From the NCBI GenBank assembly GCA_019118935.1, contig DWXY01000070.1, positions 1 to 49,186 of the forward strand: 49,186 nt of DNA, given 5' to 3'. The notes under the pieces are model-generated. The model searched no databases, had not been told where the DNA came from, and was given only the letters and a program-made list of their open reading frames with translations. Position numbers and translations under genes: made by a program. This document shows positions 18,951 through 38,952 of the stretch, in pieces (position 1 is the stretch's first letter; each line of letters starts with the position of its first letter). The DNA is from Candidatus Oscillibacter pullicola (GTDB lineage Bacteria > Bacillota > Clostridia > Oscillospirales > Oscillospiraceae).

Positions 18951-21557
18951 TTGGCCGAACTCACCCCCATGATGAAGCAGTACCTGGAGATCAAGAAGGA
19001 CAATCCGGACTCCATCCTGTTCTTCCGGCTGGGCGACTTCTACGAGATGTTCGCCGACGACGCGAAGCTGGCCTCCCGGGAGCTGGACCTGACCCTCACC
19101 TCCCGGGACCACGGCAAGCACGCCAAGCCCGAGGAGGAGCGGGTGCCCATGTGCGGCATCCCCTACCACGCCAGCGAGGCCTATATCGCCCGGCTCATCG
19201 CCAAGGGCTACAAGGTGGCCATCTGCGAGCAGATGGAGGACCCGGCAACGGCCAAGGGACTGGTGAAGCGGGACATCATCCGGGTGGTGACCCCCGGCAC
19301 GGTCATCGACGCCGCCTGCCTGGAGGAGAAGGCCAGCAACTTCCTCTGCGGCATCTACATCGACAGCCAGAACGCCGGCGCGGCCTTCTGCGACATCTCC
19401 ACCGGCAAGACCCACCTGACGGCCTTCTCCGGCCCGGACCGGGTGGAGCACGTCGTCAACGAGCTGGGCCGCTTCTCCCCGGCGGAGGCGGTGGTGAACG
19501 ACGGGGCCGCCTCGGAAAAGGCCCTGACCGACGCCCTGACGGAGAAGTTCCGCTGCCGGGTGGAAAACGGCGGCGAGGGCCGCTTCCGCTTGGCGGAGGC
19601 GGAGCGAAACATCCGCCGCCAGTTCGGGGAGGAGGCATTTGACCGCCTGCCCAGGACCAACCCGGCGGCGGCCATGGCTCTGGGCGGGCTGCTCCACTAT
19701 CTGTACGAGACCCAGAAAACGGACCTCTCCCACATCAACGACCTGGACTACTACGAGCAGGGCCGGTTCATGGAGCTGGACCTGACCGCCCGGCGGAACC
19801 TGGAGCTGACGGAGACCCTCCGGGACCGGGAGAAGAGAGGCTCCCTCCTGTGGGTGCTGGACAAAACCAGGACGCCCATGGGCGGGCGGCTGCTCCGCAG
19901 CTGGCTGGAGCGGCCGCTGCTGTCCGTCACCGCCATCGCCAAGCGCAATGCCGCCGTGGCCGCCCTGGTGGAGAGCACCATGGCGCGGGAGGAGCTCATC
20001 GCCGCCCTGACGGGCCTGGGAGACATGGAGCGGCTCATCGGCCGCATCGTCTACGGCACCGCCGGGGGACGGGACATGGTGTCCCTCCGCTCCGCCATCG
20101 ATCGGCTGCCCGCCCTCCGGGCCCAGCTGGCGGCCTTCTCCGGCGGACGGCTGGCGGAGCTGGCCGGGGAGCTGGACGACCTGACGGAGATCGGGGCACA
20201 CATCGGCGCGGCCATCTGCGACGAGCCGCCGTTCTCCGTCCGGGAGGGCGGCTTCATCCGGGACGGCTACAACGAGGAAGTGGACCGCCTGCGCCACATC
20301 ATGAACGGCGGCAAGGGCGTCCTGGCGGAGATCGAGGCCAAGGAGAAGGAGCGCACCGGCATCCGAACCCTGAAGATCGGCTACAACAAGGTCTTCGGCT
20401 ATTACATCGAGGTGTCCAACTCCTTCAAGGACCAGGTGCCGGACACCTACATCCGCAAGCAGACCCTGGTGAACGGGGAGCGGTACATCACCCAGGAGCT
20501 GAAGGACCTGGAGCACGAGATCCTCACCGCCTCGGACCGGGTAGTGGCATTGGAGTATGAGCTCTTCACGGCGCTGCGGCAGGAGATCTCCGCCCAGAGC
20601 GCCCGCATCCAGCGGACCGCCGCCGCGGTGGCGGAGGTGGATGCCCTGGTGTCCTTCGCGGCGGTGGCGGTGCGGAACCACTACTGCCGCCCCACGGTGG
20701 ACGAGTCCGGGGTCATCGAGATCCACGACGGCCGCCATCCGGTGGTGGAGCAGATGCTCAAGGACAGCCTCTTCGTCCCCAACGACACCTTCATGGGGGA
20801 GAAGGAGGACCGGGTGGCCATCATCACCGGCCCCAACATGGCGGGCAAGTCCACCTACATGCGCCAGGTGGCGCTGATCGTCCTCATGGCCCAGATGGGC
20901 TCCTTCGTCCCAGCGGCCAGCGCCCGCATCGGCGTGGTGGACCGGATCTTCACCCGCATCGGCGCCAGCGACGACCTGTCCGCAGGCCAGTCCACCTTCA
21001 TGGTGGAGATGACGGAGGTGGCGGACATCCTGCGCCATGCCACGAAGCACTCCCTGCTGATTCTGGACGAGATCGGCCGCGGCACCAGCACCTTTGACGG
21101 CATGTCCATCGCCCGGGCGGTGCTGGAGTACTGCGCGGACAAGAAGCTGCTGGGGGCCAAGACCCTGTTCGCCACCCACTACCACGAGCTGACGGAGCTG
21201 GAGAACACCCTGCCCGGCACGGTCAACTACAACATCGCCGTCAAGACCCGGGGAGAGGACATCATCTTCCTGCGGAAGATCCTCCCCGGCGGGGCGGACC
21301 GCAGCTACGGCATCGAGGTGGCCAAGCTGGCGGGGCTGCCGGACAAGGTGGTCCAGCGGGCCAAAACGGTCCTGAAGGAGCTGGAGGAGGAGAACGGCGT
21401 CCAGTATGTGGCGGCCCGGAAAGAGGAGGACCAGGTGTCCCTCACCGCCATCGGCGAGGGGGAGGTGCTGGACGCCCTCCGCCGCTGCCAGCCGGACACG
21501 CTGACGCCCATTGAGGCGATGAGCCTGATTTACGAGTGGAAGCAGAAGCTCAACTGA
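18951..21557 (+). CDS. mutS: DNA mismatch repair protein MutS
   Basis: 868 residues from the TTG at 18951, which has GAGGTG six bases upstream and gives the family N terminus (xAELTPMMKQYLEIK); a GTG nine bases earlier would overlap the ribosome site. MutS recognises mismatches as a dimer clamp. The mismatch-reading FYEMF motif (Phe-x-Glu) is at about residues 35-40, the connector and lever domains follow, and the ATPase has GPNMAGKSTYMRQ (Walker A, about residue 630), the LSAGQSTFMVEM signature, DEIGRGTSTFDG (Walker B) and the FATHYHELTELE switch. Full length. In the usual order it would be followed directly by mutL, but two membrane-protein genes and repeats intervene here. Confidence 0.97.
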   Translation: MAELTPMMKQYLEIKKDNPDSILFFRLGDFYEMFADDAKLASRELDLTLTSRDHGKHAKPEEERVPMCGIPYHASEAYIARLIAKGYKVAICEQMEDPATAKGLVKRDIIRVVTPGTVIDAACLEEKASNFLCGIYIDSQNAGAAFCDISTGKTHLTAFSGPDRVEHVVNELGRFSPAEAVVNDGAASEKALTDALTEKFRCRVENGGEGRFRLAEAERNIRRQFGEEAFDRLPRTNPAAAMALGGLLHYLYETQKTDLSHINDLDYYEQGRFMELDLTARRNLELTETLRDREKRGSLLWVLDKTRTPMGGRLLRSWLERPLLSVTAIAKRNAAVAALVESTMAREELIAALTGLGDMERLIGRIVYGTAGGRDMVSLRSAIDRLPALRAQLAAFSGGRLAELAGELDDLTEIGAHIGAAICDEPPFSVREGGFIRDGYNEEVDRLRHIMNGGKGVLAEIEAKEKERTGIRTLKIGYNKVFGYYIEVSNSFKDQVPDTYIRKQTLVNGERYITQELKDLEHEILTASDRVVALEYELFTALRQEISAQSARIQRTAAAVAEVDALVSFAAVAVRNHYCRPTVDESGVIEIHDGRHPVVEQMLKDSLFVPNDTFMGEKEDRVAIITGPNMAGKSTYMRQVALIVLMAQMGSFVPAASARIGVVDRIFTRIGASDDLSAGQSTFMVEMTEVADILRHATKHSLLILDEIGRGTSTFDGMSIARAVLEYCADKKLLGAKTLFATHYHELTELENTLPGTVNYNIAVKTRGEDIIFLRKILPGGADRSYGIEVAKLAGLPDKVVQRAKTVLKELEEENGVQYVAARKEEDQVSLTAIGEGEVLDALRRCQPDTLTPIEAMSLIYEWKQKLN

Positions 21558-21795
21558 GCACCCGGCGGGGCAGGCACAGCGGGATGTGTTCTCTGCCGCT
21601 GGGGACCGGACGGTCTGACAACGCCCGGAGAGCGGCGCTCAGGCCGGGACAGGGCGTTCCAAGGAAATGAGGCCCCCGGCGGCGGGCGGACGCACGCCGC
21701 CCAAGCCCAGCGGATCAAAAGAAGACCCCGGCGGATCCGTCCGCCGGGAAAAACGAGCTGAAACAGAAGCCGGACAAAAACCGGGAGGGAACGAG
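21558..21795 (+). repeat. Non-coding gap after mutS with a decayed hairpin element
   Basis: This 238-base gap has no gene. The stretch about 21627-21690 matches the hfq element closely in two blocks: GCGGCGCTCAGGCCG (here about 21633, there 28710) and GGAAATGAGG (here about 21664, there 28784). At 21753-21775 a segment resembles the mutS 3' end (21533-21555) at 17 of 23 bases, offset 220, close to the 224-base offset of the hfq and lepA duplications. Farther on is a hairpin CCCGGCGGA/TCCGCCGGG (about 21727-21748). I read it as an eroded fourth member of the gene-end-duplicating family; the mutS match is short and could be chance. Confidence 0.4.
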
Positions 21796-22506
21796 ATGCC
21801 AAGAAGAAAGAGCGCCGCCTATATGTCGGCGGGAGAACAGATCGCGGGCACGGTGCTCTTTGTGATCTACCTGCTGGTGCTGCCCTTTGTCACAGCCCCG
21901 CTGTTCCGCCTGATCGGCGGACTGCTGGGAGTGACCATCAGCGCCGGACTGCAGAATATCCTGTATTACTACATTCTCTTCGCCGCGACGGTCATCATTT
22001 TCCACGGCTTTCTGGGCCGGACCTCCCGGCACTTTGCGGAGAACCTGGGCGGGGCCTGCAAGTTCATGGCCATCGGACTGGTGGCCCTGTACGGCCTGAA
22101 CGAGCTGGTGTACCGCCTGACAAGACTGGTGGTGTCCAACCAGACCAACCTGAACGACACCACCATCTCCGCCCAGATCGAGGACGCGCCCCACATGACG
22201 CTGCTGATCGTCATTTTCCTGGCGCCCTTTGTGGAGGAGGTACTCTTCCGGGGGCTGGTATTCGGGAATCTCCGGCGCAAGAGCGCGGCGGTGGGATACC
22301 TGGTCAGCTGCCTGCTGTTCGCCCTGCTGCACGTGTGGCAGTTCGCGGTGGTGAACCGGGACATCACGTATTTCCTGCTGATGCTCCAGTATCTGGTGCC
22401 CGGGCTGGTGCTGGCGTGGGTCTATGACCGCACCGGCACCCTGTGGACGTCCATCGGCCTCCATGCGGCGGCCAACGCCCTCTCCGCCTGGACCATTGTG
22501 GCATAA
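21796..22506 (+). CDS. CPBP-family intramembrane metalloprotease
   Basis: 236 residues with about six to seven membrane helices. The three Abi/CPBP (CaaX protease and bacteriocin-processing) motifs are present: EEVLFRGLVFGNL (EExxxR, about residue 145), LLFALLHVWQF (FxxxH) and GLHAAANAL (HxxxN), forming the catalytic metal site. Such proteases process membrane peptides or, in some bacteria, confer bacteriocin immunity; the substrate here is unknown. The ATG at 21796 with GGGAGGG seven bases upstream is chosen; the longer open frame runs into repeat-like DNA. It sits between mutS and mutL, an insertion relative to the usual order. Confidence 0.9.
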   Translation: MPRRKSAAYMSAGEQIAGTVLFVIYLLVLPFVTAPLFRLIGGLLGVTISAGLQNILYYYILFAATVIIFHGFLGRTSRHFAENLGGACKFMAIGLVALYGLNELVYRLTRLVVSNQTNLNDTTISAQIEDAPHMTLLIVIFLAPFVEEVLFRGLVFGNLRRKSAAVGYLVSCLLFALLHVWQFAVVNRDITYFLLMLQYLVPGLVLAWVYDRTGTLWTSIGLHAAANALSAWTIVA

Positions 22507-22547
22507 GGGCGGGATTCCGGAACGATGACGAGGGGAGAAAGCGACAG

Positions 22548-23465
22548 ATGAATTTTTGGGACGTATTCGGCGAGATGCTGGTCATCCTGTTCGCTATTGC
22601 GGCGGGCTATGCGGCCAACCGGCTGGGGTACCTGGGCGGGGAGACGGACCAGAAGGTCTCCAAGCTGCTGCTGAACATCACCATGCCCGCCATGATCGTG
22701 GCGGCGGTGATCACCGGCGAGGAGCTGCCGGAGCTGGGGGTCATCCTCTCCATCCTGGAGGTGGGCGTGGTGTTCTACCTGCTGGAGGCGGTCTTTGCCC
22801 TGGTGGTGCCCCGGTTCCTGCCGGGCACGCCGGGGCAGAAGGGCGTGTGGCGGTATGCCCTGGCCTTCCCCAATGTGGGGTTCATCGGCTATCCCGTGGC
22901 GGTGGCCCTGTTTGGAGACGGCGCGCTGTTCTACGCCGCCATCCTGGCGCTGCCCTTCAATCTCCTGTCTTACAGCCTGGGCCCGCTGCTGCTGGCAGGC
23001 GCCGCCCGGTTCCGCTGGAAGCAGCTGTTCACCCCCTGCATCGTGGCCTCTGTCCTGGGACTGGTGCTGGCGCTGACCCGGCTGCGGCCGCCGGCCCTGG
23101 TGGGAGAGATGCTGGACTTTGTGGGGGACATCACCGTGCCGCTGTCCCTGCTGGTGGTGGGGTCCCTGCTGGCGGGCATGTCCGCCGGACAGGTGCTGCG
23201 CTCTCCCAAGCTGTGGCTGCTGACGGCCATCCGCCTGCTGTTGCTGCCGGTGGCCCTGTGCCTGGTCCTCCGGGCGCTGGGGATCGACTCCCTGGTGCTG
23301 GGGATCGCCGTCACCCAGATGGCCATGCCCGTAGCGGTGAACGGGACGCTGCTGAGCATGGAGTACGGCGGAGACACCGAGTGCATGGCACAGATCACGT
23401 TCCTGACCACGGCAGCCTCCATTGTGACCATTCCCATCGTCGCCGTGCTGCTGCTCTGGGCTTAG
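22548..23465 (+). CDS. Auxin efflux carrier (AEC) family transporter
   Basis: 305 residues, ten predicted membrane segments in two halves. Typical marks: FAIAAGYAANRLGYL at the start, LLLNITMPAMIVAAVITGEEL (conserved N-x-x-x-P in helix 2), FPNVGFIGYPVAVALFGDGALFYAAI, and the second-half VGSLLAGMSAGQVLRSPKLWLLTAIRLLLLPVAL and QMAMPVAVNGTLLSMEYGGD. AEC carriers export or import small organic acids (malate, malonate and others). The start has GAGGGGAGAAAG upstream. The stop lies 13 bases before the duplicated mutL start. Substrate unknown. Confidence 0.88.
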   Translation: MNFWDVFGEMLVILFAIAAGYAANRLGYLGGETDQKVSKLLLNITMPAMIVAAVITGEELPELGVILSILEVGVVFYLLEAVFALVVPRFLPGTPGQKGVWRYALAFPNVGFIGYPVAVALFGDGALFYAAILALPFNLLSYSLGPLLLAGAARFRWKQLFTPCIVASVLGLVLALTRLRPPALVGEMLDFVGDITVPLSLLVVGSLLAGMSAGQVLRSPKLWLLTAIRLLLLPVALCLVLRALGIDSLVLGIAVTQMAMPVAVNGTLLSMEYGGDTECMAQITFLTTAASIVTIPIVAVLLLWA

Positions 23466-23478
23466 AAAGGAAACCGAT

Positions 23479-23709
23479 ATGCCTCACATTCAACAATTAG
23501 ATTCCCACGCAGCGGACCTGATCGCCGCTGGTGAAGTGGTGGAGTGGACCCCGGCGAGGCACCGCTTCGCCGGGGACCCCGATTGGATTTTTGCGTGCCA
23601 GGCAGAGCCCGGCACACCCAAGGTTTTGCTGCGCAAAACGCTTGTACGCCGCTGGCGCGGCGGCTCGCCGGTGGCTCGCATGGCGGGCCGCTCCAGGAAG
23701 GGAGAATAA
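23479..23709 (+). pseudogene. Duplicated 5' end of mutL running into a repeat element
   Basis: The first 22 codons (23479-23544) repeat the start of mutL (23711-23776): both encode MPHIQQLDSH(A/V)ADLIAAGEVVE. Seven of 66 bases differ; six of the seven changes are silent, including a Ser codon change TCC/AGC. After codon 22 the frame passes into the hairpin element (23545-23710) and stays open for 54 more meaningless codons, stopping at TAA one base before the real mutL ATG. It has its own ribosome site (AAAGGAAACC). It cannot make a working MutL; it may be translated and hand ribosomes on to mutL. Confidence 0.8.
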
Positions 23710-23710
23710 C
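23545..23710 (-). repeat. Gene-end-duplicating hairpin element, mutL copy
   Basis: 166 bases between the duplicated and the true mutL start. Read on the minus strand it has the same order of parts as the lepA and hfq elements: H1 CGCCGC/GCGGCG (23647-23652 and 23657-23662), a CAAGCGTTTT linker, H2 GTTTTGC/GCAAAAC (23623-23629, 23633-23639), a CCTTGGG box (complement of 23617-23623), H3 (23595-23603 with 23607-23615, one mismatch), and H4 CCCCGGCGA/TCGCCGGGG (23549-23557, 23567-23575). H1 faces the intact mutL and H4 the truncated copy. ATTGGAT (23582-23588) lies between H3 and H4. No coding content of its own is evident. Confidence 0.75.
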
Positions 23711-25795
23711 ATGCCACACATTCAACAATTGGACAGCCACGTAGCGGACCTGATCGCCGCCGGTGAAGTGGTGGAGCGGCCTGCCAGCGTGGTGAAGGAG
23801 CTGGTGGAAAACGCCGTCGATGCCGGCAGCTCTGCCGTGGTGGTGGAGATCCGCCGGGGCGGCATGGGCATGATCCGGGTGACGGACAACGGCTGCGGCA
23901 TCGCGCCGGAGGAGCTTCCCACCGCCTTCCTGCGCCACGCCACCTCCAAGCTGCGGACGGAGGAGGACCTGGGGAAGATCGGCACCCTGGGGTTCCGGGG
24001 CGAGGCCCTGGCCGCCATCTCCGCCGTCAGCCGGGTGGACATCCTCACCCGCCAAACCGGCACGACGGAGGGCGCCGCCCTCCATCTGGAGGGCGGCGTT
24101 CCCGGCGCAGTGGAGCCCGCTGGTGCGCCGGAGGGCACCACCATCACGGTCCGGGATCTGTTTTACAACACCCCCGCCCGGCTGAAGTTCATGCGCAAGG
24201 ACAGCGCGGAGACCGCGGCGGTGAACGGCCTGATGCAGCATCTGGCCCTGTCCCATCCGGATATCTCCTTCAAGTTCATCAAGGACGGGGTGGAGGCCCT
24301 GCTGACCCCCGGCGACGGAAAGATGGATTCCGCCGTCTACGCCGCCCTGGGCCGGGACTTCGCCCGGGGGCTGGTGCCGGTGTCCGGCAGCGGAGGGGAC
24401 ATCACGGTCTCCGGCTTTGTCACTGCGCCGCTGATGGGCCGGGGCTCCCGGTCCATGCAGGTGTTCTTCGTCAACGGCCGGTTCATCAAGTCCCAGCTGC
24501 TGACGGCGGCGCTGGAGGAGGGCTACCGCAACCAGATCATGAAGGGCAAGTTCCCCGGCTGCGTCCTGTCTGTCACCCTGCCGGTGACGGCGGTGGACGT
24601 GAACGTCCACCCCGCCAAAACCCAGGTGAAGTTCGCCCGGGAGCACGATGTGTTCGACGCCGTCTACCACACGGTGCTGGACGCCCTGGACAAGGCCGGC
24701 GCCCCCGCCGGTGCCGCTCCCGCGCAGGAGACGCCGCTTCCGGCGGCCTCCCGGCAGGACTTCTTCCAGACCATGGACGCCAAGACGTTCCGCCAGGGCG
24801 GAGCAAAGCCGGCGCCCCAGCCCACGGCCCCGGCCCGGCCCGCCTGGAACACCGAGCTGCGGGCGCCCGCCCGGGTGGCGGACAGCGGGCAGGCCTCTTT
24901 TTACCAGACCAAGCGCGCAGAGTCCCCGGCCCAGAGCGCTCTGGGAAGGGCGACCGCCTCTGTGGCGGCACCGCCGGACGCGCAGCAAAGCAGCCCGCCT
25001 GCGTCCTCCTACAACAGAGGTGCGCTGGGCAGGCCGCCTGCCTCCGTGACTGCCCAGGCGGCGGAGCGGACGGCTCCCTCCGCCCCCTGGTCCTCTGCCC
25101 CAGCGTCCGCCCCTGCGGAAAAGACGTCCCCGCCGGAATCTGCTCCCCGGCCTTTCGTGCCCGCCATCCCGCCGGAGCGGCTGAAGCTGACGGAGGATCT
25201 GCCGGGCCAGACCACCGTTCTGGAGACGAAAGAAGCCCCCTGGCGGATCGCCGGGGAGGTGCTGCGGACCTACATCATCTGCGAGAGCGAGGACGGCAGC
25301 GTCTGGCTCATCGACAAGCACGCCGCCCACGAGCGGATGAATTTTGACAAGCTGAAAAATGCTCAGGAGCCCCCCATGCGGCAGACGCTGCTGGCCCCCA
25401 TCGCGGCGGAGCTGAGCCGGGAGGACGGGGCGCTGCTGCTGGAGAACCTGCCTCTGCTGGAGCAGTTCGGCTTTGCCTGCGAGGACTTCGGGGACGGCGC
25501 CCTGCTGGTGCGGGAGGTGCCGGCGGACATCGACGCCGCCGACACGGTGCCCACTCTGGAGGAGTTTGCCGAGCGCCTGCGGACCGGCCGCTCTCCGGAG
25601 GAGAGGCGGGAGGCGCTGCTGCATACCATGGCCTGCAAGGCGGCCATCAAGGGCGGCTGGGTCAGCGACCCGGCGGAGCTGCGGGTGCTGGTGGACCGGG
25701 TGCAGAGCGGAGAGATCAAATACTGCCCCCACGGCCGCCCAGTGGCGGTGAAGCTGACGAAGTACGAGCTGGAGAAGATGTTCAAGCGGGCGTGA
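23711..25795 (+). CDS. mutL: DNA mismatch repair protein MutL
   Basis: 694 residues from the ATG at 23711 (GGAAGGGAGAATAAC upstream). The GHKL ATPase shows ELVENAVDAGS (catalytic Glu33, Asn), DNGCGI, and TLGFRGEALAAISAV; the transducer domain follows. Residues about 340-480 are a Pro/Ala/Ser-rich linker. The C-terminal domain has the nicking-endonuclease site DKHAAHERMNFD, equivalent to DQHAxxExxxxE but with Lys for Gln and Asp for the last Glu, plus ACKAAIKGG and CPHGRP, which complete the metal site. MutL should therefore nick DNA on instruction from MutS. The upstream gene end is duplicated (23479-23544). A multi-hairpin cassette follows the stop. Confidence 0.97.
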   Translation: MPHIQQLDSHVADLIAAGEVVERPASVVKELVENAVDAGSSAVVVEIRRGGMGMIRVTDNGCGIAPEELPTAFLRHATSKLRTEEDLGKIGTLGFRGEALAAISAVSRVDILTRQTGTTEGAALHLEGGVPGAVEPAGAPEGTTITVRDLFYNTPARLKFMRKDSAETAAVNGLMQHLALSHPDISFKFIKDGVEALLTPGDGKMDSAVYAALGRDFARGLVPVSGSGGDITVSGFVTAPLMGRGSRSMQVFFVNGRFIKSQLLTAALEEGYRNQIMKGKFPGCVLSVTLPVTAVDVNVHPAKTQVKFAREHDVFDAVYHTVLDALDKAGAPAGAAPAQETPLPAASRQDFFQTMDAKTFRQGGAKPAPQPTAPARPAWNTELRAPARVADSGQASFYQTKRAESPAQSALGRATASVAAPPDAQQSSPPASSYNRGALGRPPASVTAQAAERTAPSAPWSSAPASAPAEKTSPPESAPRPFVPAIPPERLKLTEDLPGQTTVLETKEAPWRIAGEVLRTYIICESEDGSVWLIDKHAAHERMNFDKLKNAQEPPMRQTLLAPIAAELSREDGALLLENLPLLEQFGFACEDFGDGALLVREVPADIDAADTVPTLEEFAERLRTGRSPEERREALLHTMACKAAIKGGWVSDPAELRVLVDRVQSGEIKYCPHGRPVAVKLTKYELEKMFKRA

Positions 25796-25804
25796 GACTT
25801 CGAA

Positions 25805-25918
25805 GGGGGACTGCGTCCCCCCTCGACCTCCCCCCTCACCAGTGACGTCGGTCACTGGTGTGTGCGCCCAAGGCGCACGGGTCAAGGGATTTTCGCCACG
25901 TACACGCCGTGGCGAAAA
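25805..25918 (+). repeat. Multi-hairpin cassette, copy 2 (after mutL)
   Basis: Stems 25805-25811/25815-25821 (GGGGGAC/GTCCCCC), 25837-25846/25851-25860 (10 bp), 25862-25868/25872-25878 (GTGCGCC/GGCGCAC), and 25890-25900/25908-25918 (11 bp, 7-base loop). Order, spacing and several unpaired stretches match the cassette after pnp (1131-1276), and the last stem keeps pairing through compensating changes. Both cassettes begin within about ten bases of a stop codon. Confidence 0.75.
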
Positions 25919-25956
25919 TGATTAAAATTTCTTCGTTCGCCCGCAGCAAACGAACT

Positions 25957-25979: not shown

Positions 25980-26034
25980 TAGCCCTTTTTCCTGGCGGAG
26001 ACGGGAGTGATGAATTTTTCGGGAGGTTTCCTAT

Positions 26035-26229: not shown

Positions 26230-26232
26230 CAG

Positions 26233-28425: not shown

Positions 28426-28671
28426 ATGCAGACAAAAGCGAATTTACAGGACCTGTTTCTCCTCCGGGCCAGACGGGACAAGCTGCCCGTCACCATGTTT
28501 CTGATGAACGGCTTCCAGATGCGGGGCACCATCGCGGGGTTTGACGCCTTTGTGGTGGTGCTGGACAGCGACGGCCGGCAGCAGATCATTTACAAACACG
28601 CGATCTCCACCATCGCGCCGGTGCGGCCGGTGGATCTGGAGGGTGAGGAGCCGGCCGTCGCGGGCGCGTGA
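28426..28671 (+). CDS. hfq: RNA-binding protein Hfq
   Basis: 81 residues. Hfq is the hexameric Sm-like chaperone of small RNAs. The Sm1 region [40 protein letters not shown] and Sm2 region [18 protein letters not shown] are intact, with the proximal-face Gln, the YKH motif and FLMNGF. AAAGGAG lies eight bases before the ATG. From Gly-Glu-Glu near the end, the last six residues (PAVAGA) are encoded beyond the point where a duplicated copy of the hfq 3' part joins, so the C-terminal tail may have been altered by the element that follows. Confidence 0.95.
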
Positions 28672-28798
28672 GCGGCCTGCGGGCCTGTTTCGAGGCCCAC
28701 CGCCCGAAGGGCGGCGCTCAGGCCGAGATCCCGTTTTGCGGATCAAGACCTTGGGCACGGCGGGCTTTGCCCGCCGTGCCTGGGGAAATGAGGGCCCG
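28651..28798 (+). repeat. Gene-end-duplicating hairpin element, hfq copy
   Basis: 148 bases between the intact hfq arm (28575-28650) and its partial copy (28799-28874). Parts in order: a GGGCCT/AGGCCC stem (28681-28686, 28693-28698), H1 CCGCCC/GGGCGG (28700-28705, 28709-28714), CGTTTTGCGGATCAAG linker, CCTTGGG box (28749-28755), H3 with a perfect 12-bp stem (28754-28765, 28769-28780; loop TTT, apex GGGC...GCCC as in lepA). The H4 region is degenerate (GGGGAAATGAGGG). The H1 side faces the intact gene, as in lepA and mutL. Confidence 0.7.
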
Positions 28799-28874
28799 CC
28801 GGCAGAAAATCATTTACAGGCACACGACCTCCACCATCGCGCCGGTGCGGCCGGCGGAGCTGGAGGTTGAGGAG
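28799..28874 (+). pseudogene. Duplicated 3' part of hfq
   Basis: 76 bases repeat hfq 28575-28650 at an offset of exactly 224, with 9 differences. The frame encodes [25 protein letters not shown] against [25 protein letters not shown] in Hfq; all changed codons alter the residue, and the YKH motif is lost, so this is a scrap, not a gene. It is followed by about 70 bases of GC-rich DNA leading to the next ribosome site. Confidence 0.8.
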
Positions 28875-31440: not shown

Positions 31441-31467
31441 GCGGACACGAGGGGGTAACATCGCACT

Positions 31468-32178
31468 ATGCTGACACCGCAGGAAGTTTCCACCCACGCC
31501 TTTTCCAAGGCGGTGATGGGCGGATATAACATGGCCATGGTCGATGAGTTTCTGGACGAGCTCACCGATGATTACACCGCGCTCTACAAGGAGAACGCGG
31601 CGCTGAAGGCCAAGCTGAAGGTCCTGGTGGAGAAGGTGGAGGACTACCGCGCCACCGAGGACTCCATGCGCGCCACCCTGCTGACCGCCCAGAAGATGGC
31701 GGACTCCATCGTCCACGAGGCGGAGGCCAAGCGGGACGAGATCCTGGCCCAGGCGGAGACCAGCGCCCGGGAGAAGATCGGCCAGCTGCGCCAGGAGGTG
31801 GAGGCCGCTGAGGAGCGGCTGCGCCAGGGCCAGCGGGATCTGGCCCAGTTCATTGCCGCCAGCCGGGAGATCTGCGAGAAGGAACTGAAATTCCTGGAGC
31901 AGCTGCCCGATCTGCCGGTGGAGGCGGCGGAACCGGTCTCCCGGCAGGAGCCGGAGGAGGCCGTCCAGCAGATCGAGGAAAAGGTGCTGGCCGCCTTCGG
32001 CGAGCAGAGCGTGGAGGAGGAAGCGGCCCCGGCGGAAGCGGAAGAGGTGTCTCCGGCGGCGGAGGACGACTATCCGGAGGGGGACCCCTTTGCGACCGAT
32101 CCTGTGGATGAGCCCACCCGCCGCATCAATCTCAGCGATCTGAAGTTCGGCCGCAACTACTCCGGCGGCGACGACTGA
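31468..32178 (+). CDS. divIVA: DivIVA-domain cell division/polarity protein
   Basis: 236 residues. The N-terminal lipid-binding domain LTPQEVSTHAFSKAVMGGYNMAMVDEFLDELTDDY is the DivIVA signature; a long coiled coil follows (about residues 35-140), and an acidic, probably disordered tail ends with IDP-like RRINLSDLKFGRNYSGGDD. DivIVA recognises negatively curved membrane at the septum and poles and recruits division and growth factors. Last gene of the division cluster, closed by a strong terminator. Confidence 0.93.
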   Translation: MLTPQEVSTHAFSKAVMGGYNMAMVDEFLDELTDDYTALYKENAALKAKLKVLVEKVEDYRATEDSMRATLLTAQKMADSIVHEAEAKRDEILAQAETSAREKIGQLRQEVEAAEERLRQGQRDLAQFIAASREICEKELKFLEQLPDLPVEAAEPVSRQEPEEAVQQIEEKVLAAFGEQSVEEEAAPAEAEEVSPAAEDDYPEGDPFATDPVDEPTRRINLSDLKFGRNYSGGDD

Positions 32179-32184
32179 ACGATC

Positions 32185-32211
32185 AAAGCGGCTCGCAGGA
32201 GCCGCTTTTTT
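32185..32211 (+). terminator. Intrinsic terminator after divIVA
   Basis: A 10-bp stem AAAGCGGCTC/GAGCCGCTTT (32185-32194, 32199-32208; loop GCAG) running into a T tract (32206-32211). Confidence 0.92.
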
Positions 32212-32258
32212 CTTTCCCGTCCCCGGCGCCCAACGTCTTTTGATTGGAGGAGCCAGCC

Positions 32259-33137
32259 ATGAAGCAGCAGCCCATTGTGGCCTTTCTGTACGACTTTGAC
32301 AAGACCCTCTGCACCACCGATATGCAGGACTACGCCTTCATCCCCTCCCTGGGGATGACCCCCGCGGAGTTCTGGGCGGAGGCCAACGGCTTCGGCCGCC
32401 GGAACCGGATGGACGGCATCCTGGCCTATATGTACACCATGCTGCGGGAGGCGGCGCGGCGGAACCGTCCCTTTACCCGGGCGGACCTGGTGGAGAAGGG
32501 GCGGAGCATCGTGCTATTCCCCGGTGTGGAGGACTGGTTCCGGCGGATCAACGAATTCGGCGCCGGCCAGGGTGTCCAGGTGGAGCACTACATCATCTCC
32601 TCCGGCCTGCGGGAGATCATCGAGGGCTCGTCCATCAGCGGGGAGTTCAAGGAGATCTATGCCAGCGAGTTTTACTATGATGAGAGCGGCGTGCCCGTGT
32701 GGCCCAAGCTGGCGGTGAACTTCACCGCCAAGACCCAGTTCGTCTACCGGATCAACAAGGGCGTGCTGGACGTGTCCAACGACCGGGATCTGAACGCCTC
32801 CATGCCTGACGACAGCAAGCGGGTGCCCTTCACCAGCATGATCTACATGGGGGACGGACTCTCCGACGTACCCTGCATGAAGATGATGCGGGCCTACGGC
32901 GGCCAGGCCATCGCCGTGTACCAGGCCAGCAACCGCGCCGGTGTGGAGGACCTGCTGGCCAAGGGCCGGGTGGATTATATCTTCCAGGCGGACTACCGGG
33001 CCGGGTCTGCGCTGGAGGCCACGGTGCAGGACATCATCCGCAAGATGGCGGTGACGGACCGCCTGTGGGAGGAGAATGCCCGCCAGGTGCGCAGCATCGG
33101 GGGAGATGTGCTGCTGGGGCAGGTGGGTCTGTTCTGA
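32259..33137 (+). CDS. HAD-superfamily hydrolase (phosphoserine phosphatase-like subfamily)
   Basis: 292 residues. Motif I is AFLYDFDKTLCTTDMQ with the DxDxT core; motif II lies in YIISSGLREIIEGS (the S/T of motif II), and motifs III/IV in the Lys of VPFTS region and IYMGDGLSDVPCMK (GDGxxD). The cap between motif I and II is about 90 helical residues. The SSGL and GDGLSD segments resemble SerB-type HAD enzymes, but the substrate is not certain. Start by GGAGG eight bases upstream; a TTG inside that site is rejected. It stands alone between two hairpins. Confidence 0.85.
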   Translation: MKQQPIVAFLYDFDKTLCTTDMQDYAFIPSLGMTPAEFWAEANGFGRRNRMDGILAYMYTMLREAARRNRPFTRADLVEKGRSIVLFPGVEDWFRRINEFGAGQGVQVEHYIISSGLREIIEGSSISGEFKEIYASEFYYDESGVPVWPKLAVNFTAKTQFVYRINKGVLDVSNDRDLNASMPDDSKRVPFTSMIYMGDGLSDVPCMKMMRAYGGQAIAVYQASNRAGVEDLLAKGRVDYIFQADYRAGSALEATVQDIIRKMAVTDRLWEENARQVRSIGGDVLLGQVGLF

Positions 33138-33157
33138 GTTGGACGGCAAGAAAACAG

Positions 33158-33187
33158 CGGGGGAAGGCGCCGCAGCGCCTTCCCCCG
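33158..33187. terminator. Hairpin after the HAD gene
   Basis: A 13-bp GC-rich stem (33158-33170 with 33175-33187, loop CGCA) 21 bases after the stop codon. Only GAAAAATG follows on the + strand, so the U tract is missing; still the likeliest transcript end. Confidence 0.65.
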
Positions 33188-33215
33188 AAAAATGTCTGAA
33201 CCGGTGGGATTTTTC

Positions 33216-33249
33216 TTTACAATCCGTATCGTATTTGTTAAACTATACG
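33216..33249 (+). promoter_or_regulatory. Promoter and possible operator of the XRE-MBOAT-SGNH operon
   Basis: TTTACA (33216-33221), 17 bases, TAAACT (33239-33244), in a strikingly A/T-rich island. CGTAT at 33225-33229 (repeated at 33230-33234) and ATACG at 33245-33249 bracket the -10 box as an inverted repeat, a plausible site for the XRE protein encoded just downstream. Confidence 0.65.
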
Positions 33250-33280
33250 TTATGTATTTGATCCTGAAGGAGAGAGAACG

Positions 33281-33970
33281 ATGGCTTCCACAACTGAATT
33301 TTCACGGACCCTGTCCCTGCTGCGGCAGGAGCGGGGCGTCTCTCAGCGGACTGCCGCCGCGGACCTGGGAATCTCCCAGGCCCTGCTGAGCCACTATGAA
33401 AACGGCATCCGGGAACCGGGCCTGGCCTTTGTGGTGAAGGCCTGTGATTACTACCACGTCTCCGCGGACTTCATCCTGGGCAGGACCCTGTCCCGGGAGG
33501 GGAACATGCTGACGGAGCAGGAGATCCTGAACGCCGCGGAGCCGGGGAACATCCTCCAGGGCAGCGTGCTGGCCACGCTCCAGAGCAAGCTGCTCTCCGG
33601 TGCCGTGGGGGTGCTGTTCGGCCTGCTGGGCAAGCTGAACGACAAGGCGGCCATCAACGCGGCCGCCGGATATCTGGGCAGCGCGGTGTACCAGCTGTAC
33701 CGCCACCTGTACCGCACCGCCGGCGCCAATGAGGCGTACTTCTCCCTGGACCCGGCCGCCTGCACCATGGGCACGGCGGAGGCGGACATGAAGCTCTCGG
33801 AGATCCAGTACACCCGGAGCCTGCGCTCCCTGGCGGCCAAAAAGGCGGCGTTCCCGGATCTGTCCAACGAGGCCCTGACCGCCGCGTATCCCGGCCGGTG
33901 CCAGAGCCTGACCCAGGTGCTGAGCACCGCAGACGCCCGCCTCAGCGGCCTGACGGAGAAGACCAGATGA
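33281..33970 (+). CDS. XRE-family regulator with a C-terminal helical domain
   Basis: 229 residues. Residues about 6-65 form the helix-turn-helix (TLSLLRQERGVSQRTAAADLGISQALLSHYENGIREPGLAFVVKACDYYHVSADFILGR). The remaining 160 residues are mainly helical with a moderately hydrophobic stretch (SKLLSGAVGVLFGLLGKLNDKAAINAAAGYLGSAVYQLYRHLY), which might be a ligand-binding or oligomerisation unit; I do not recognise it. AAGGAG lies eight bases before the ATG. Its TGA overlaps the ATG of the MBOAT gene (ATGA), so the regulator and the acyltransferase are translationally coupled. Confidence 0.87.
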   Translation: MASTTEFSRTLSLLRQERGVSQRTAAADLGISQALLSHYENGIREPGLAFVVKACDYYHVSADFILGRTLSREGNMLTEQEILNAAEPGNILQGSVLATLQSKLLSGAVGVLFGLLGKLNDKAAINAAAGYLGSAVYQLYRHLYRTAGANEAYFSLDPAACTMGTAEADMKLSEIQYTRSLRSLAAKKAAFPDLSNEALTAAYPGRCQSLTQVLSTADARLSGLTEKTR

Positions 33971-35403
33971 GCTTTCAGTCTCTGGCCTTTTTCGGCTTTC
34001 TGGCGGCAGCGCTGGCGGTGTGCCTGACAGCGGGGCGGCGCAGCCCCCGGATGGGCGCGGCGCTGCTGGCGGCGGCCTCCGCGGTTTTCTACCTTCTTGG
34101 CCCCGGCGGACCGGCAGTGGTGCTGGGAGGGCTCGCCTGCCTGCTGCTGGGCATCGCCGTGACGGCATGGGCCCTCCGGCACATGGGACGGGCCGGCGCG
34201 GACCGCCGCCGGACCATGGCGCTGGCCTGCTGCTATCACATCGCCGTGCTGGTGGGATTCAAGTATACGGAGTTCCTCACCGGCGGCGCGGTGGAGGTGG
34301 GCTGGGCCCCGCTGGGGCTGAGCTTTTTCACCTTCCAGCAGCTGTGGCTGCTGAAGGAGGCCTATACGGGGGAATATGTCCCCGCGCCAGGGGATTCCCT
34401 CCTGCTCTACGGGCTGTTTTTTCCCACCGTCACCTCCGGTCCCATCCTGCGGCCCGGAACCTTTTTTCCCCAGCTGCGGGAAAAGGGATTCCTGCATCCG
34501 GACTGGTCCGACGCTGCGGCGGGTGTCTACGCCATCTGCTGCGGCACCATCAAGAAAGTGCTGCTGGCGGACGCCTTTGGCACCGTGGTGAACAACGGCT
34601 GGGCACATCTGGGAGAGCTCAGCGCTCCGGCGGCCTGGCTGGTGATTTTGGGGTATACGCTCCAGCTGTATTTTGACTTCTCCGGCTACTGCGACATCGC
34701 AGCCGGCGTGGCCCGGCTCTTCGGCATCCGCCTGCCGGTGAACTTCGACTCCCCGTACCGCAGCGCCTCTGTGACGGAGTTCTGGAAGCGGTGGCACATC
34801 ACGCTCACCACCTTCCTGCGGGAATGCCTGTATTTCCCCCTGGGCGGCAGCCGCCGGGGCACGGTCCGGACGTATCTGAACATCCTCATCATCTTTCTGG
34901 TCAGCGGCTTCTGGCACGGGGCCGGGTGGACCTTCCTGGTGTGGGGCGCCCTCCACGGGCTGGCCCAGGTGGCGGAGCGGGCCTGGGGAAAGGGCCGGGA
35001 CCGGCTGCCCTTTGTCCTCCGGTGGGGGCTGACCTTTCTCTTTGTCAACATCGCCTGGGTGTTCTTCCGGGCGCCTGACTGCGCCGGGGCCCTGGAGCTG
35101 CTGGGCCGGGCCGTCACCGGCGGCTTTGCCAAACCGGAGGCCTGGCTGCTGGAGGGCCTTTTCGCCGAGGAGACCAGCGCGGTGCAGATGCTGATTCCCG
35201 CCTTCACACCCTGGAAAAACATCCTGCGGGTGGCGCTGCTGTATGGGGCGGGGATGGTCGCCGTCCTCTGGCCCCGGAACACCATCCGCCGGATGGAGGA
35301 CTTCCGGCCCACGCTCTGGCGGGGCGCGGCCCTCACGGTGCTGACGCTTTGGTGCGTGCTGTCCTTTACCGGCGTCACCACCTTCATCTATTCCAATTTC
35401 TGA
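33967..35403 (+). CDS. MBOAT-family membrane O-acyltransferase (AlgI/DltB-like)
   Basis: 478 residues with about eleven to twelve membrane segments. The MBOAT core is clear: YTLQLYFDFSGYCDIAAGVARLFGIRLPVNFDSPYRSASVTEFWKRWHITLTTFLRECLYFPLGG, then NILIIFLVSGFWHGAGWTFLVWGALHG, which holds the catalytic His (SGFWHG). Such enzymes move an acyl group across the membrane to an extracellular polymer, as in alginate acetylation or teichoic acid D-alanylation. It is paired with an SGNH-like gene 10 bases downstream, the standard two-component arrangement. No dltA/dltC is present, so acetylation of a surface glycan is likelier than D-alanylation (inference). Start by overlap with the regulator stop. Confidence 0.92.
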   Translation: MSFQSLAFFGFLAAALAVCLTAGRRSPRMGAALLAAASAVFYLLGPGGPAVVLGGLACLLLGIAVTAWALRHMGRAGADRRRTMALACCYHIAVLVGFKYTEFLTGGAVEVGWAPLGLSFFTFQQLWLLKEAYTGEYVPAPGDSLLLYGLFFPTVTSGPILRPGTFFPQLREKGFLHPDWSDAAAGVYAICCGTIKKVLLADAFGTVVNNGWAHLGELSAPAAWLVILGYTLQLYFDFSGYCDIAAGVARLFGIRLPVNFDSPYRSASVTEFWKRWHITLTTFLRECLYFPLGGSRRGTVRTYLNILIIFLVSGFWHGAGWTFLVWGALHGLAQVAERAWGKGRDRLPFVLRWGLTFLFVNIAWVFFRAPDCAGALELLGRAVTGGFAKPEAWLLEGLFAEETSAVQMLIPAFTPWKNILRVALLYGAGMVAVLWPRNTIRRMEDFRPTLWRGAALTVLTLWCVLSFTGVTTFIYSNF

Positions 35404-35413
35404 GGAGGGCCGT

Positions 35414-36499
35414 ATGAAGCAAGCATATCGACGCTGGGTCTGCGGCCTTCTGGCGTGTATTCTGGCGCTGCTGGCGGTCTGCGGGGCCGTGGTGTACGTG
35501 GTGGACCCCTGCCTGTATTACCGGGTGCCGGACAAGTGGCAGCCGGTGCTGTTCAACGAGCGGTACCAGATGGCGGGTCTGGCGAAGAATGTGGAGGCGG
35601 ACACCGTGCTGGTGGGCACCTCCATGGCGGCCAACTACCGCTCCAGCTGGATCCAGGAGACTTTCGGCACCTCCGCGGTGCGGCTCACCATCCCGGACGG
35701 GTATTACAGCGAGTTCGACCAGGTGATGAACGTCCTCTTCCAGGCGCAGGAGCCGGAGCGGGTGATCTTCGGACTGGATGTGAACACCCTGATCCGGGAT
35801 GAGAGCGGCGTGACCGCGGCCATGCCGGACTACCTCTACAACGCCAATCCGCTGGACGACATCCAATATCTGCTGAACAAGGACACGCTGTATTACAGCG
35901 CCTACACCCTGCTCTCCAACCACTGGGGAGAGGGCGACACCATCGACGAGGGATTCACCTGGGACCGGAACGAGTGGTGGAACCACATCTCCGCCCTGGA
36001 GAACTATGACCGGCCGGAGATCGCGTCGGAGGAGCTGCCCTCCGACGCCTATCGGGATGACGTGGCCGCCAATCTGGCGGTGGCGGAGGGCTGGGTCACA
36101 GAGCATCCGGATACGGAATTCGATTTCTTCCTGCCCCCGTACAGCATTCTCTTCTGGGACAAGGTCATCCGGGAGGGGAGGACGGAGGCGGTGTTTGCGG
36201 CCATCCGCCAGGCGGGGCAGACGCTGCTGCGGTACGACAATGTGAAGCTCTACGGCTATCTCATGGACGCGGAGATCGTCACGAATCTGGACAACTACTG
36301 CGACTACATCCACCACTCCGGCGGCGTCTGCCGGGAGATTCTCGCCATGCTCCAAAGGGAGGAGGGCCGGCTGACAGAGGAAAATCTGGAGGAGACCCTC
36401 GCCAACTGGCGGGAATTTGTGGTACACTATGACTATGACAAGTTCTGGGACGAGGGCTTCTGGATTCAGTGGAACGCAGAGCATGCCGCGGCCCCATAA
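35414..36499 (+). CDS. SGNH-like partner of the MBOAT acyltransferase
   Basis: 361 residues with one N-terminal membrane anchor (about residues 8-28) and an extracellular domain. VLVGTSMAANYRSSWIQETFG (about residues 72-92) has the GTS nucleophile position of SGNH/GDSL-type enzymes, and DYIHHSGGVCREIL (about residue 297) has the Asp-x-x-His catalytic pair. This fits AlgX/AlgJ- or DltD-like proteins that receive an acyl group from the MBOAT protein and place it on the polymer. The gene follows the MBOAT gene by 10 bases with GAGGAGGG before its ATG and ends the operon. Polymer unknown. Confidence 0.82.
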   Translation: MKQAYRRWVCGLLACILALLAVCGAVVYVVDPCLYYRVPDKWQPVLFNERYQMAGLAKNVEADTVLVGTSMAANYRSSWIQETFGTSAVRLTIPDGYYSEFDQVMNVLFQAQEPERVIFGLDVNTLIRDESGVTAAMPDYLYNANPLDDIQYLLNKDTLYYSAYTLLSNHWGEGDTIDEGFTWDRNEWWNHISALENYDRPEIASEELPSDAYRDDVAANLAVAEGWVTEHPDTEFDFFLPPYSILFWDKVIREGRTEAVFAAIRQAGQTLLRYDNVKLYGYLMDAEIVTNLDNYCDYIHHSGGVCREILAMLQREEGRLTEENLEETLANWREFVVHYDYDKFWDEGFWIQWNAEHAAAP

Positions 36500-36515
36500 A
36501 GCGGCGGCCTTGAGA

Positions 36516-36622
36516 GGAGCCCTGTGACAGGAGGCTCCCGGGCGGAGCAGAACCGCCCGGCGGCGAAAGCTGCATCCGCTCCCTTGCGCCTTCTCTCCCC
36601 ATAAAATCTCGGATTTTATGGG
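36516..36622 (+). other. Hairpin-rich gap between the SGNH gene and lepA
   Basis: The 209-base gap holds three clear stems: GGAGCC/GGCTCC with an inner CTG/CAG (36516-36538), CGGGCGG/CCGCCCG (36539-36545, 36553-36559) and CCCATAAAATC/GATTTTATGGG (36598-36608, 36612-36622, loop TCG). A small GGCGC-TTC-GCGCC stem follows near 36644. One of these presumably terminates the acyltransferase operon; none has a good T tract. I found no promoter of convincing quality for lepA here. Confidence 0.55.
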
Positions 36623-36708
36623 CCCCCATTCCGATTGAAAGAACGGCGCTTCGCGCCGGGTCCGCGATGCGGGCCTTGCGTGGACCTGCCGATGGAGGAA
36701 AATCCGAT

Positions 36709-38514
36709 ATGACAAAACAGAGCAACATCCGAAATTTCAGCATCATTGCCCATATCGACCACGGCAAGTCCACGCTGGCGGACCGGCTGCTGGAGAAGTG
36801 CAACGCCGTCTCCGCCCGGGAGATGGAGTCCCAGCTGCTGGACAACATGGACCTGGAGCGGGAGCGGGGCATCACCATCAAGGCCCGGGCCGTCCGGCTG
36901 ACCTACCACGCCCGGGACGGGGAGGACTACGAGCTGAACCTCATCGACACCCCGGGCCATGTGGACTTCAACTATGAAGTCTCCCGCTCCCTGGCCGCCT
37001 GCGAGGGCGCCGTGCTGGTGGTGGACTCCACCCAGGGCGTGGAGGCCCAGACCCTGGCAAACACGTATCTGGCCATGGAGCACGACCTGGAGATCCTGCC
37101 GGTGTTCAACAAGATCGACCTGCCGGCGGCGGACCCCGCCAAGGCCAAGCAGGAGGTGGAGGACATCATCGGCCTGCCCGCCATGGACGCGCCGGAGATC
37201 TCCGCCAAGATGGGCACCAACATCGAAGCGGTGCTGGAGGACATCGTGAAGAACGTACCGCCCCCCAAGGGGGACCCTGCGGCGCCCCTGAAGGCGCTGA
37301 TCTTCGACAGCCAGTATGACTCGTACCGCGGCGTCATCGTCTACTTCCGGGTCATGGAGGGCACCCTCCGCACGGGCCAGCAGGTGAAGATGATGGCCTC
37401 CGGCGCCACCTATCCGGTCATCGAGTGCGGCCATCTGCTGCCCCTGGGCATGGAGCCCTGCGACAGCCTCCAGGCCGGCGAGGTGGGCTACTTCACCGCC
37501 TCCATCAAGAACGTGAAGGACACCCGGGTGGGCGACACCGTCACCGATGCCGCCAATCCCACGGCCGGGGCCCTGCCCGGCTACCGGCCCGTGCAGCCCA
37601 TGGTCTACTGCGGCATCTACACGGAGGACGGATCCAAGTACCCGGACCTGCGGGACGCGCTGGAAAAGCTCCAGCTGAACGACGCCTCGTTGAGCTTTGA
37701 GCCGGAGAGCTCCGTGGCCCTGGGTTTCGGCTTCCGGTGCGGCTTTTTGGGCATGCTCCACATGGAGGTCATCCAGGAGCGGCTGGAGCGGGAGTTCGAC
37801 CTGGACCTGGTGACCACCCTGCCCTCCGTCATCTACCACGTGTACAAGACCGACGGCACCATGGTCACGGTGGACAATCCCCACAATTACCCGGACCCGG
37901 CGGTGATCGAGCACGCGGAGGAGCCCTACGTCAAGGTGAACATCATCGCCCCCAACGAGTTTGTGGGCAACATCATGCCCATGTGCCAGGACCGCCGGGG
38001 GGAGTTCAAGGACATGCAGTACCTGGACACCAACCTGGTGGAGCTCCACTACCAGATGCCCCTGAACGAGATCATCTACGACTTCTTCGACGCCCTGAAG
38101 GCCAACACCAAGGGCTATGCCTCTCTGGACTATGAGCTCTCCGGCTACCGGCCCAGCGAGCTGGTGAAGGTGGACCTGAAGCTGAACGGGGAGATGGTGG
38201 ATGCCCTGAGCTTCATTGCCCACAGGGACAAGGCGTACCCCCGGGCCCGGCGGCTGTGCGAGAAGCTGAAGGAGAACATCCCCCGGCAGCTGTTCGAGGT
38301 GCCGGTCCAGGCGGCCATCGGCGGCCGGGTCATCGCCCGGGAGACCGTCAAGGCCATGCGGAAGGACGTGCTGGCCAAGTGCTACGGCGGCGATATCAGC
38401 CGCAAGAAGAAGCTGCTGGAAAAGCAGAAGGAGGGCAAGAAAAAGATGCGCTCCCTGGGATCGGTGCAGATCCCGACGGAGGCGTTCCTGGCGGTGCTCA
38501 AGCTGGACGAGTGA
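36709..38514 (+). CDS. lepA: Elongation factor 4 (LepA), back-translocating GTPase
   Basis: 601 residues, normal length. The G domain begins [24 protein letters not shown] (G1) and shows [13 protein letters not shown] (G2), [10 protein letters not shown] (G3) and [11 protein letters not shown] (G4); the EF-G-like domains II, III and V follow, and the LepA-specific C-terminal domain contains [26 protein letters not shown] and [29 protein letters not shown]. LepA acts on ribosomes, probably in biogenesis or stalled elongation. The ATG at 36709 with GGAGG upstream matches the family start. The last 81 bases are repeated twice more downstream (38658-38738 and 38881-38952). Confidence 0.97.
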
Positions 38515-38952
38515 GCCCTCCTTCCCGGGCCAGCGGCCTGGCGCCGCGGAAGCGGCGTCAAGCGGTTTCGGAGGGAAACCCTTGGAGCGGGCGGGCTTAG
38601 CCTGCCCGCTCTGATTGGATGGGGGGACCCCGCAGGACCAGAGGTCCTGTGGGGTGCGGCAAAAAGAAGATGCGCTCTCTGGGAAGTGTGCAGATCCCGA
38701 CGGAGGCGTTCCTGGCGGTGCGCAAGCTGGACGAGTGAGCCCTCCTTCCCGGGCCAGCGGCCCGGTGCCGCGGAAGCGGCGTCAAGCGGTTTCGGAGGGA
38801 GACCCTTGGAGCGGGCGGGCTTAGCCTGCCCGCTCTGATTGGATGGGGGTCCCCGCAGGACCAGAGGTCCTGTGGGGTGGGGCAAAAAGAAGATGCGCTC
38901 CCTGGGAAGTGTGCAGATCCCAACGGAGGCGTTCCTGGCGGTGCGCAAGCTG
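38434..38952 (+). repeat. Tandem array of lepA 3' ends and hairpin elements
   Basis: Unit of 224/223 bases. The last 81 bases of lepA (38434-38514) recur at 38658-38738 and, cut short, at 38881-38952; the two spacers (38515-38657 and 38739-38880) are almost identical hairpin elements. Each element has H1 CGCCGC/GCGGCG (38542-38547, 38552-38557), H2 GGTTTC/GAAACC (38564-38569, 38575-38580), a CCTTGG box (38580-38585), H3 with a 12-bp stem (38585-38596, 38600-38611; loop TTA), ATTGGAT (38614-38620) and an H4 stem near 38622-38655. Copies 2 and 3 resemble each other more than the gene (both have AGT for Ser where lepA has TCG). Copy 2 keeps the stop codon; copy 3 loses homology after AAGCTG. Confidence 0.88.

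Follow-up and report, generated by a model that had tools for sequence, protein, structure and literature searches.

Duplicated gene ends in the window

The window analysed here, 49,186 nucleotides (nt) of contig DWXY01000070.1 from Candidatus Oscillibacter pullicola, holds four copies of a small structured element, one at mutL, one at hfq and two in tandem at lepA, as located by a covariance model (R1) built from the window elements and their kin. Each copy has the same layout, in which an intact gene end is followed by a gap, a core of hairpins (H1 to H4) and, right at the core end, a second copy of the gene end; additional copies elsewhere in this genome, located by DNA comparison, share it. 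We refer to the gene end on the H1 side as D, to the copy past the core as D′, and to a short segment between D and the core as A′, or the address, which is complementary to a stretch of the host gene (target A) that crosses the insertion point.

The intact lepA gene (36667–38514, plus strand; Pfam LepA_C) carries its gene end on the H1 side of the first element. Target A (38427–38436) lies across the duplication boundary 38433|38434, from which the first end copy, D1, runs through the stop codon, inclusive (38434–38514). The address at 38515–38524 is the exact reverse complement of 38427–38436, and it is followed by core 1 (38540–38659; 114 bits with R1) and by the second gene-end copy, D2 (38658–38738). 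A second tandem unit then repeats the arrangement on the same strand, with its own A′ (38739–38748), core 2 (38764–38882; 105.6 bits) and an outermost, truncated gene-end copy, D3 (38881–38952). At mutL the element lies on the minus strand and the gene is hit at its start: D comprises the first codons of the intact gene (23711–23779, on the H1 side), target A lies at 23773–23783, the address, 9 nt and exact, was read off the sequence at 23686–23694, and the core (23549–23664; 95.7 bits) adjoins a second, partial gene start, D′ (23479–23547). The element at hfq (28444–28671, plus strand; Pfam Hfq) looks old. Its core (28699–28809; 60.3 bits) has, by our reading, no proper H4, and the repeat formed by D (28567–28650) and D′ (28791–28874) is only 86% alike, D′ having drifted mostly through amino-acid changes as judged from the codons.

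The first-pass annotation of this DNA had reported duplicated ends at these places, with offsets of 232 bases for mutL, 224 for hfq, and 224 and 223 for lepA, and all were recovered. It had begun the affected stretch at 21533, where what follows mutS is at most a decayed relic. The segment 21558–21704 is probably such a relic and has a 31-nt stretch in common with the hfq copy. Neither a covariance-model match nor a flanking duplication was found there, and a diverged version is present at the same place in the close relative G100 (G and L numbers denote genomes and loci).

The core and its family

The core is about 120 nt long and forms four hairpins in the order H1, CAAG(CG)-H2-CCTTG, H3, H4. 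This is the order first read from the window (H1, a linker, H2, a CCTTGG box, H3 and H4), to which we add that CAAG and CTTG pair with one another and form the foot of H2. As a single strand one lepA copy folds at −104.9 kcal/mol, with a z-score of −7.0 against shuffled sequences; the corresponding z-scores are −3.5 for the mutL copy, −4.6 for the hfq copy and −2.2 for the suspected mutS relic. RNAalifold, run on a MAFFT alignment of 12 copies, gives 28 base pairs, 17 of them with compensatory changes. In an alignment of 93 copies that was fitted to the covariance model (A3), standard pairs occupy 96.3% of cells, two-sided changes are seen in some copy for 38 of 39 pairs, and covariation scores 0.554, compared with at most 0.094 when the partners are slid. 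Within the core alignment G-U pairs outnumber A-C mismatches by 131 to 20, or by 41 to 20 without two G-U-rich pairs, and this excess points to a structural constraint on the sense strand of genes hit at their 3′ ends.

The element does not appear to be catalogued, in that we found no description of it in the open-licence literature searched and no match in Rfam. Rfam 15, which includes HEARO and the group I and group II introns, gave zero matches in the window at gathering score, and two element regions compared with Rfam at E ≤ 10 returned only unrelated weak matches under that score. The core, structured and non-coding at its length, is not an endonuclease reading frame. For 10 copies, most of them without a clear second gene end (L060, L090, L095, L055 and L127 included), no longer coding version was found within about 200 nt upstream and 260 nt downstream, the span to which the search was confined. 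Weakly scoring longer variants of about 145 nt occur at L155 (G018), L157 (G000, the window's own genome) and L291:60-201 (G042).

R1 finds 33 matches in G000 at E ≤ 0.01 (34 in another scan), and at E ≤ 1e-5 with stricter filters it has matches in 45 of 86 genomes from the genus, which bears out the proposal that the window copies belong to a real element family. None was found with R1 in 15 genomes from other families of the same order. A DNA pattern for H2, compared with an 84,980-species collection, gave at least 118 matching stretches; the 80 matches listed come from Flavonifractor, Pseudoflavonifractor, Intestinimonas, Oscillibacter, Dysosmobacter and other Oscillospiraceae, from related Clostridia and from unclassified bins. 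The lepA core was unmatched in phage and plasmid collections, and copies are present on two IMG/VR phage contigs. Tandem arrays are frequent in G091, G092, G043, G008:C17 and G013:C42, with periods of about 137–266 nt. The cultured strain Flavonifractor plautii ATCC 29863 has three or more tandem units, with an address of 12 nt, at the end of one gene (L344 7240–7960), in an array that contains an assembly gap. Several elements lie at contig ends, so that draft assemblies seem to break at elements.

Two sets of loci were compared. The first, drawn mostly from among the matches listed, began as 147 model matches (62 + 85) in stretches from 11 genomes, in which contig-edge matches are mostly absent; 138 were kept once seven truncated or weak matches and two duplicates of window copies had been removed, and three of the 138 lie too near a stretch end, leaving 135 for analysis. 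The second comprises the 80 listed loci and two viral ones, whose 93 hits were reduced to 91 by dropping two cut ones and to 82 by setting aside nine too near an end. It is not wholly independent of the first, with loci from the same genus and two, L348 and L327, that repeat L144 and L124. Strict sets of 84 or 80 sites omit weaker or tandem-shifted duplications.

A flanking direct repeat scoring at least 25 is present at 120 of the 135 sites in the first set. When the left flank of one copy is compared with the right flank of another, the median score is 10, the 95th and 99th percentiles are 13 and 32.5 and the maximum is 52.5, the last two values being high probably because same-gene copies were paired. 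The second set gives a repeat at this threshold in 69 of 82 sites (control 95th percentile 12.5, 99th 15.5, maximum 40.5). Copies without a strong flanking duplication, which would tell against the tie between element and duplicated end drawn in the first-pass annotation, are a minority (15 of 135 score below 25). At 98 of the 120 duplicated sites the second copy begins between −8 and +6 of the core end. The offset between copies (n = 98) has quartiles of 203, 215 and 225 and ranges from 157 to 410; its near-constancy is thus a property of the four window pairs that does not extend to the family. The aligned duplications span 32–105 nt in 84 strict cases and lack the fixed length of a target-site duplication, and the carried copy usually extends to the stop codon or slightly past it.

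Judged by the longest open frame, the element is at a gene 3′ end in 71 of 80 sites; the other nine lie on the opposite strand (5′ ends like that of mutL, or unclear). A frame of at least 300 nt spans the H1-side boundary in 86 of 90 sites of the first set and 47 of 49 of the second, by a measure that tests the H4 side poorly in such GC-rich DNA, and two of the six exceptions (L089 and L143) are the short gene hfq. The fixed polarity claimed from the window therefore extends to the family and is not random. Hosts matched in Pfam include formate–tetrahydrofolate ligase, MutS2, UppP/BacA, phosphoglucose isomerase, an elongation-factor-G-like protein, a class II (D, K, N) tRNA synthetase, a Mur ligase (MurE by reading), LeuRS, a further class II tRNA synthetase (GlyRS by reading), UvrB, a class I release factor, DnaB, DUF1934, LepA and Hfq. 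The host proteins at L048 and L047 gave no Pfam match, and their reading frames may be wrong.

The address and the history of sites

The first-pass annotation missed the address beside H1 that matches the insertion point. A′ comprises about 8–19 nt complementary to the host gene across this point and is located immediately 5′ of H1 or, where one extra hairpin intervenes, about 15 nt farther upstream. A clear ungapped match over the boundary (score at least 8) is present at 59 of 80 sites, where A′ is complementary to both flanks of the insertion point. Position by position, the matching fraction at these 59 sites is 0.36 at −7, then 0.74, 0.71, 0.76, 0.85, 0.92 and 0.90 from −6 to −1, and 0.97, 0.98, 0.95, 0.85, 0.85, 0.69 and 0.59 from 0 to +6; the target has G at −3 in 42 sites and at −2 in 43. 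A gapped test on the 80 sites gives a median of 10.5, compared with a median of 6, a 95th percentile of 9 and a 99th percentile of 11–12 for other or shifted boundaries. In the second set, A′ scores at least 10 at 44 of 56 sites (43 of 54 without L348 and L327), as against 3.9% of control pairs.

The address also changes along with its target. We compared 118 sites in 66 site groups, 28 of which have more than one member; the comparisons are not independent. Among 153 target differences within groups, the address follows in 70, is unchanged in 51 and does otherwise in 32, and where the target is the same the address differs in 180 of 1191 comparisons; compensated changes occur in 18 of the 28 multi-member groups. 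At filled site 1 of mutS, compared in seven genomes, the address matches each genome's own codons, with one mismatch or wobble in G086 and G008. In G042, G018 and G004 the carried MutS end at this site reads KLS and then stop at the A′ junction, and D′ ends in KLK. The A′ score correlates little with D-D′ divergence (Spearman −0.13, p 0.15, n 130; −0.21, p 0.055 for the first set alone). As A′ does not decay while D and D′ diverge, it looks maintained rather than a by-product; an origin as a fold-back by-product of insertion was considered and is unsupported, A′ being no shorter at greater D-D′ divergence.

Descent of the cores is site-specific. Median core identity is 0.78 for the same site in different genomes, 0.60 for different sites in the same genome and 0.58 for different sites in different genomes, and for 41 of 67 cores the closest one sits at that site in a different genome. 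By these identities the copies across one genome do not look related by recent movement. With cores clustering by site rather than by genome, moves to new genes seem to be rare, and each site tends to have its own core lineage.

The close relative G100, a single contig that is 96.8% identical to the window over 3.6 kb, lacks the element by the model at 7 of 23 sites (L156 and L157 were left out of this comparison). Six of these, at mutL, the release factor, phosphoglucose isomerase, the class II (D, K, N) synthetase, L047 and L051, are clean single gene ends, with neither element nor second gene end, which is the outcome that the first-pass annotation's proposal leads one to expect at an empty site. 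At the seventh, L041, about 70 nt of unrelated sequence are present in addition. In G041 the element is absent from mutS, lepA and mutL. Tandem number also changes between G000 and G100, from one to three at L056 and L057, from one to two at L052, and from two to one at lepA, L032 and L049. The grouping of cores by site, together with the clean empty alleles, argues against a transposon hopping between gene ends. The first-pass annotation had proposed a defined mechanism, which stands, and a non-autonomous element that inserts at gene ends across the genome and duplicates the end each time, which the site-wise grouping does not support.

Within a genome D and D′ differ by 0.041, and D differs by 0.171 between genomes. 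The likeness of the two copies indicates that the ends are refreshed, by loss and regain, conversion or tandem exchange. Codon differences between D and D′ at 70 forward sites are 140 synonymous to 63 amino-acid changing, with L096 and L150, possibly misframed, supplying 19 of the 63; the predominance of synonymous differences suggests that D′ either arose recently or remains in use. In the release-factor gene D′ is nearer to the native end than D is (62 vs 56 of 67; 63 vs 58 in G041), as a foreign carried end would show.

Proposed guided homing and its alternatives

The closest known layout is that of the mobile open reading frames of fungal mitochondria. There the inserted element has an endonuclease gene and brings a foreign gene end, past which the native end persists, with carboxy-terminal duplications of this kind in Allomyces atp6 and in Glomus atp6, atp9, cox2 and nad3 (PMC3630166). 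The units described here likewise lie inside a gene near its end, carry an in-phase gene end ahead of the module, leave the native end downstream and have element-free relatives. Unlike the fungal elements, with an endonuclease gene and a carried end reported as foreign, they combine an address with a non-coding core of about 120 nt, and their carried end is mostly similar to the native end. For A′ itself the closest structural idea is the group I intron internal guide sequence, which pairs with both exons (PMC3984707), much as one short sequence here is complementary to both sides of the insertion point. The element differs from a group I intron in having no group I match in Rfam and a spare gene end on board. 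OMEGA RNAs of IscB and IsrB (HEARO) have a 5′ guide and then a hairpin scaffold, an order that address and core share; unlike them, the element has no Rfam match, and the IscB N-terminal domain PF14239 is present in 1 of the 21 genomes with at least 10 elements (the element-rich set). With REP and REPIN sequences and their RAYT transposases it shares hairpin repeats, many copies per genome and the lack of a protein of its own. It differs from REPs, given as 20–40 bp (PMC3733652), in its site-specific descent, gene-end copy and address, and RAYT is present in 8 of the 21 element-rich genomes.

We tentatively favour, at a little less than even confidence, a guided homing element that carries a rescue gene end, because the layout equals that of the fungal mobile reading frames but with a module that is non-coding and addressed to the empty site. 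The unit would consist of D, A′ and the four-hairpin core, inserted within a conserved gene near its end, such that the carried copy then forms the end of the host gene, with the original end, D′, left behind past the core. A single-stranded sense form, most likely RNA, would recognise the empty allele across the insertion point through A′; a factor acting in trans would break or open the empty allele there, and repair templated by the filled allele would copy the unit in. As D would keep the host gene working, insertion would cost little. A more specific proposal, which we regard as possible though doubtful, is a natural RNA-guided homing system without a protein of its own, in which a scaffold RNA of 120 nt, with an address of 8–19 nt, would use a host or phage factor to insert a copy of itself into the empty gene that it matches, in chromosomes and phages, would bring along a rescue end for that gene and would adjust its address to an evolving target.

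If A′ is a guide, nucleic-acid-guided homing would occur in bacteria and phages, packaged with its own rescue sequence, in an element that to our knowledge would be smaller than any known guide-RNA system; this would give reason to look for an undescribed guided nuclease or recombinase and would provide a natural model of address evolution. Even if A′ is no guide, a structured element without an Rfam entry is present at tens of copies per genome in common gut bacteria. It rewrites the gene ends of lepA, mutS, mutL, hfq, tRNA synthetases and release factor, and can mislead their annotation and phylogeny.

Several observations weigh against guided homing. The covariation count rests on a model-fitted alignment, with which the independent MAFFT alignment of 12 copies agrees. 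At 21 of 80 sites there is no clear A′, where D and D′ differ the address fits both about equally (10 vs 13), and the address followed a changed target in under half of the comparisons. The difference in D between genomes exceeds a genome's own D-D′ difference in 101 of 114 pairs, which speaks against a foreign carried end and calls for homing inside a species, for gene conversion or for exchange between tandem copies. Nor can a donor origin of D be generalised; of six empty-site comparisons the release-factor site supports it, L047 points the other way, and the remaining four are ties or too ambiguous to call. No nuclease was found among the four candidate families covered, RVT_1, IscB, TnpB and RAYT, each of which is missing from most of the 21 element-rich genomes.

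Among those 21 genomes RVT_1 is present in 8, the TnpB zinc ribbon PF07282 over cut-off in 4, Y1 in 13 and either Y1 or RAYT in 16. As most of the genomes are drafts, a missing gene is weak evidence genome by genome. By these domain counts we disfavour IscB, TnpB, Y1 or RAYT as the sole mover. Priming by a reverse transcriptase, suggested by the precise 3′ end and variable 5′ end, was also set aside, RVT_1 not being found in 13 of the 21, which are drafts; the complete G100 has eight. An element lies about 5 kb from RAYT in G018 and in G042, and none was found in the 16 kb around the G100 RAYT; this proximity was treated as chance. The elements near RAYT in G018 and G042 are weak variants of about 145 nt, and G000 has no RAYT match.

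Old insertions held under selection on the mRNA would be an unlikely account of the same data. The A-A′ pairing, which could form a long mRNA stem, and the hairpins would protect or end the transcript, tandem exchange would keep D and D′ alike, as they are within genomes, and palindrome correction would move A′ with A; tandem number does vary between close strains. Yet A′ is centred on the duplication boundary, a position that mRNA stability does not need, and empty alleles are common between close strains. Distinctly improbable, in our judgement, is a transposon with a long target-site duplication, moved by a transposase that makes staggered cuts 40–100 bp apart, with survivors being those that keep the gene end intact. 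It would explain direct repeats at the precise 3′ end of the core and clean, single-copy empty sites. The main point against it is that cores group by site, not by genome; moreover the 32–105 nt of D are no fixed duplication, A′ is left without a reason, and at 133 of 139 sites a long frame runs across the boundary, though intergenic insertion would be most neutral.

An intron-like element, in which the mRNA would lose everything between the left boundary and the core end and A′ would be an internal guide to both exons through P1- and P10-like pairings, we consider just as improbable as the transposon. The address covers 6 nt upstream with a sharp edge and 5–8 nt downstream, in keeping with the group I guide layout (PMC3984707), and both the sense-strand structure and the signs of coding constraint in D′ would fit. 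Against this stand the lack of an Rfam group I or II match and the consideration that a spliced element would need no gene end on board. Group I introns have U at base −1, unlike the composition here of A 27, G 15, T 11 and C 6 (n = 59). The least probable of these accounts is an element mobilised as single-stranded DNA by a Y1 or RAYT transposase, with A′ resembling the end guide of IS200/IS605. A guide adjoining a hairpin, the favouring of one strand and the occurrence of Y1 or RAYT in 16 of the 21 element-rich genomes are in its favour, but neither was found in the draft genomes G041, G008, G068, G086 and G091, and a duplication such as D is not expected of IS200/IS605.

Both IMG/VR contigs that carry copies are true phages, with portal and head proteins in both and tail sheath in L421. 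The L421 element lies at the end of the terminase gene; its address is perfect over 19 nt, and only about 2 of 95 positions separate D from D′. Part of its core (39–52%) is matched by three gut-phage records that lack annotation. Phages may ferry elements between hosts. The phage copies sit in packaging or structural gene clusters, at 1230–1395 of L421 and at 4889–5014 and 8591–8715 of L420.

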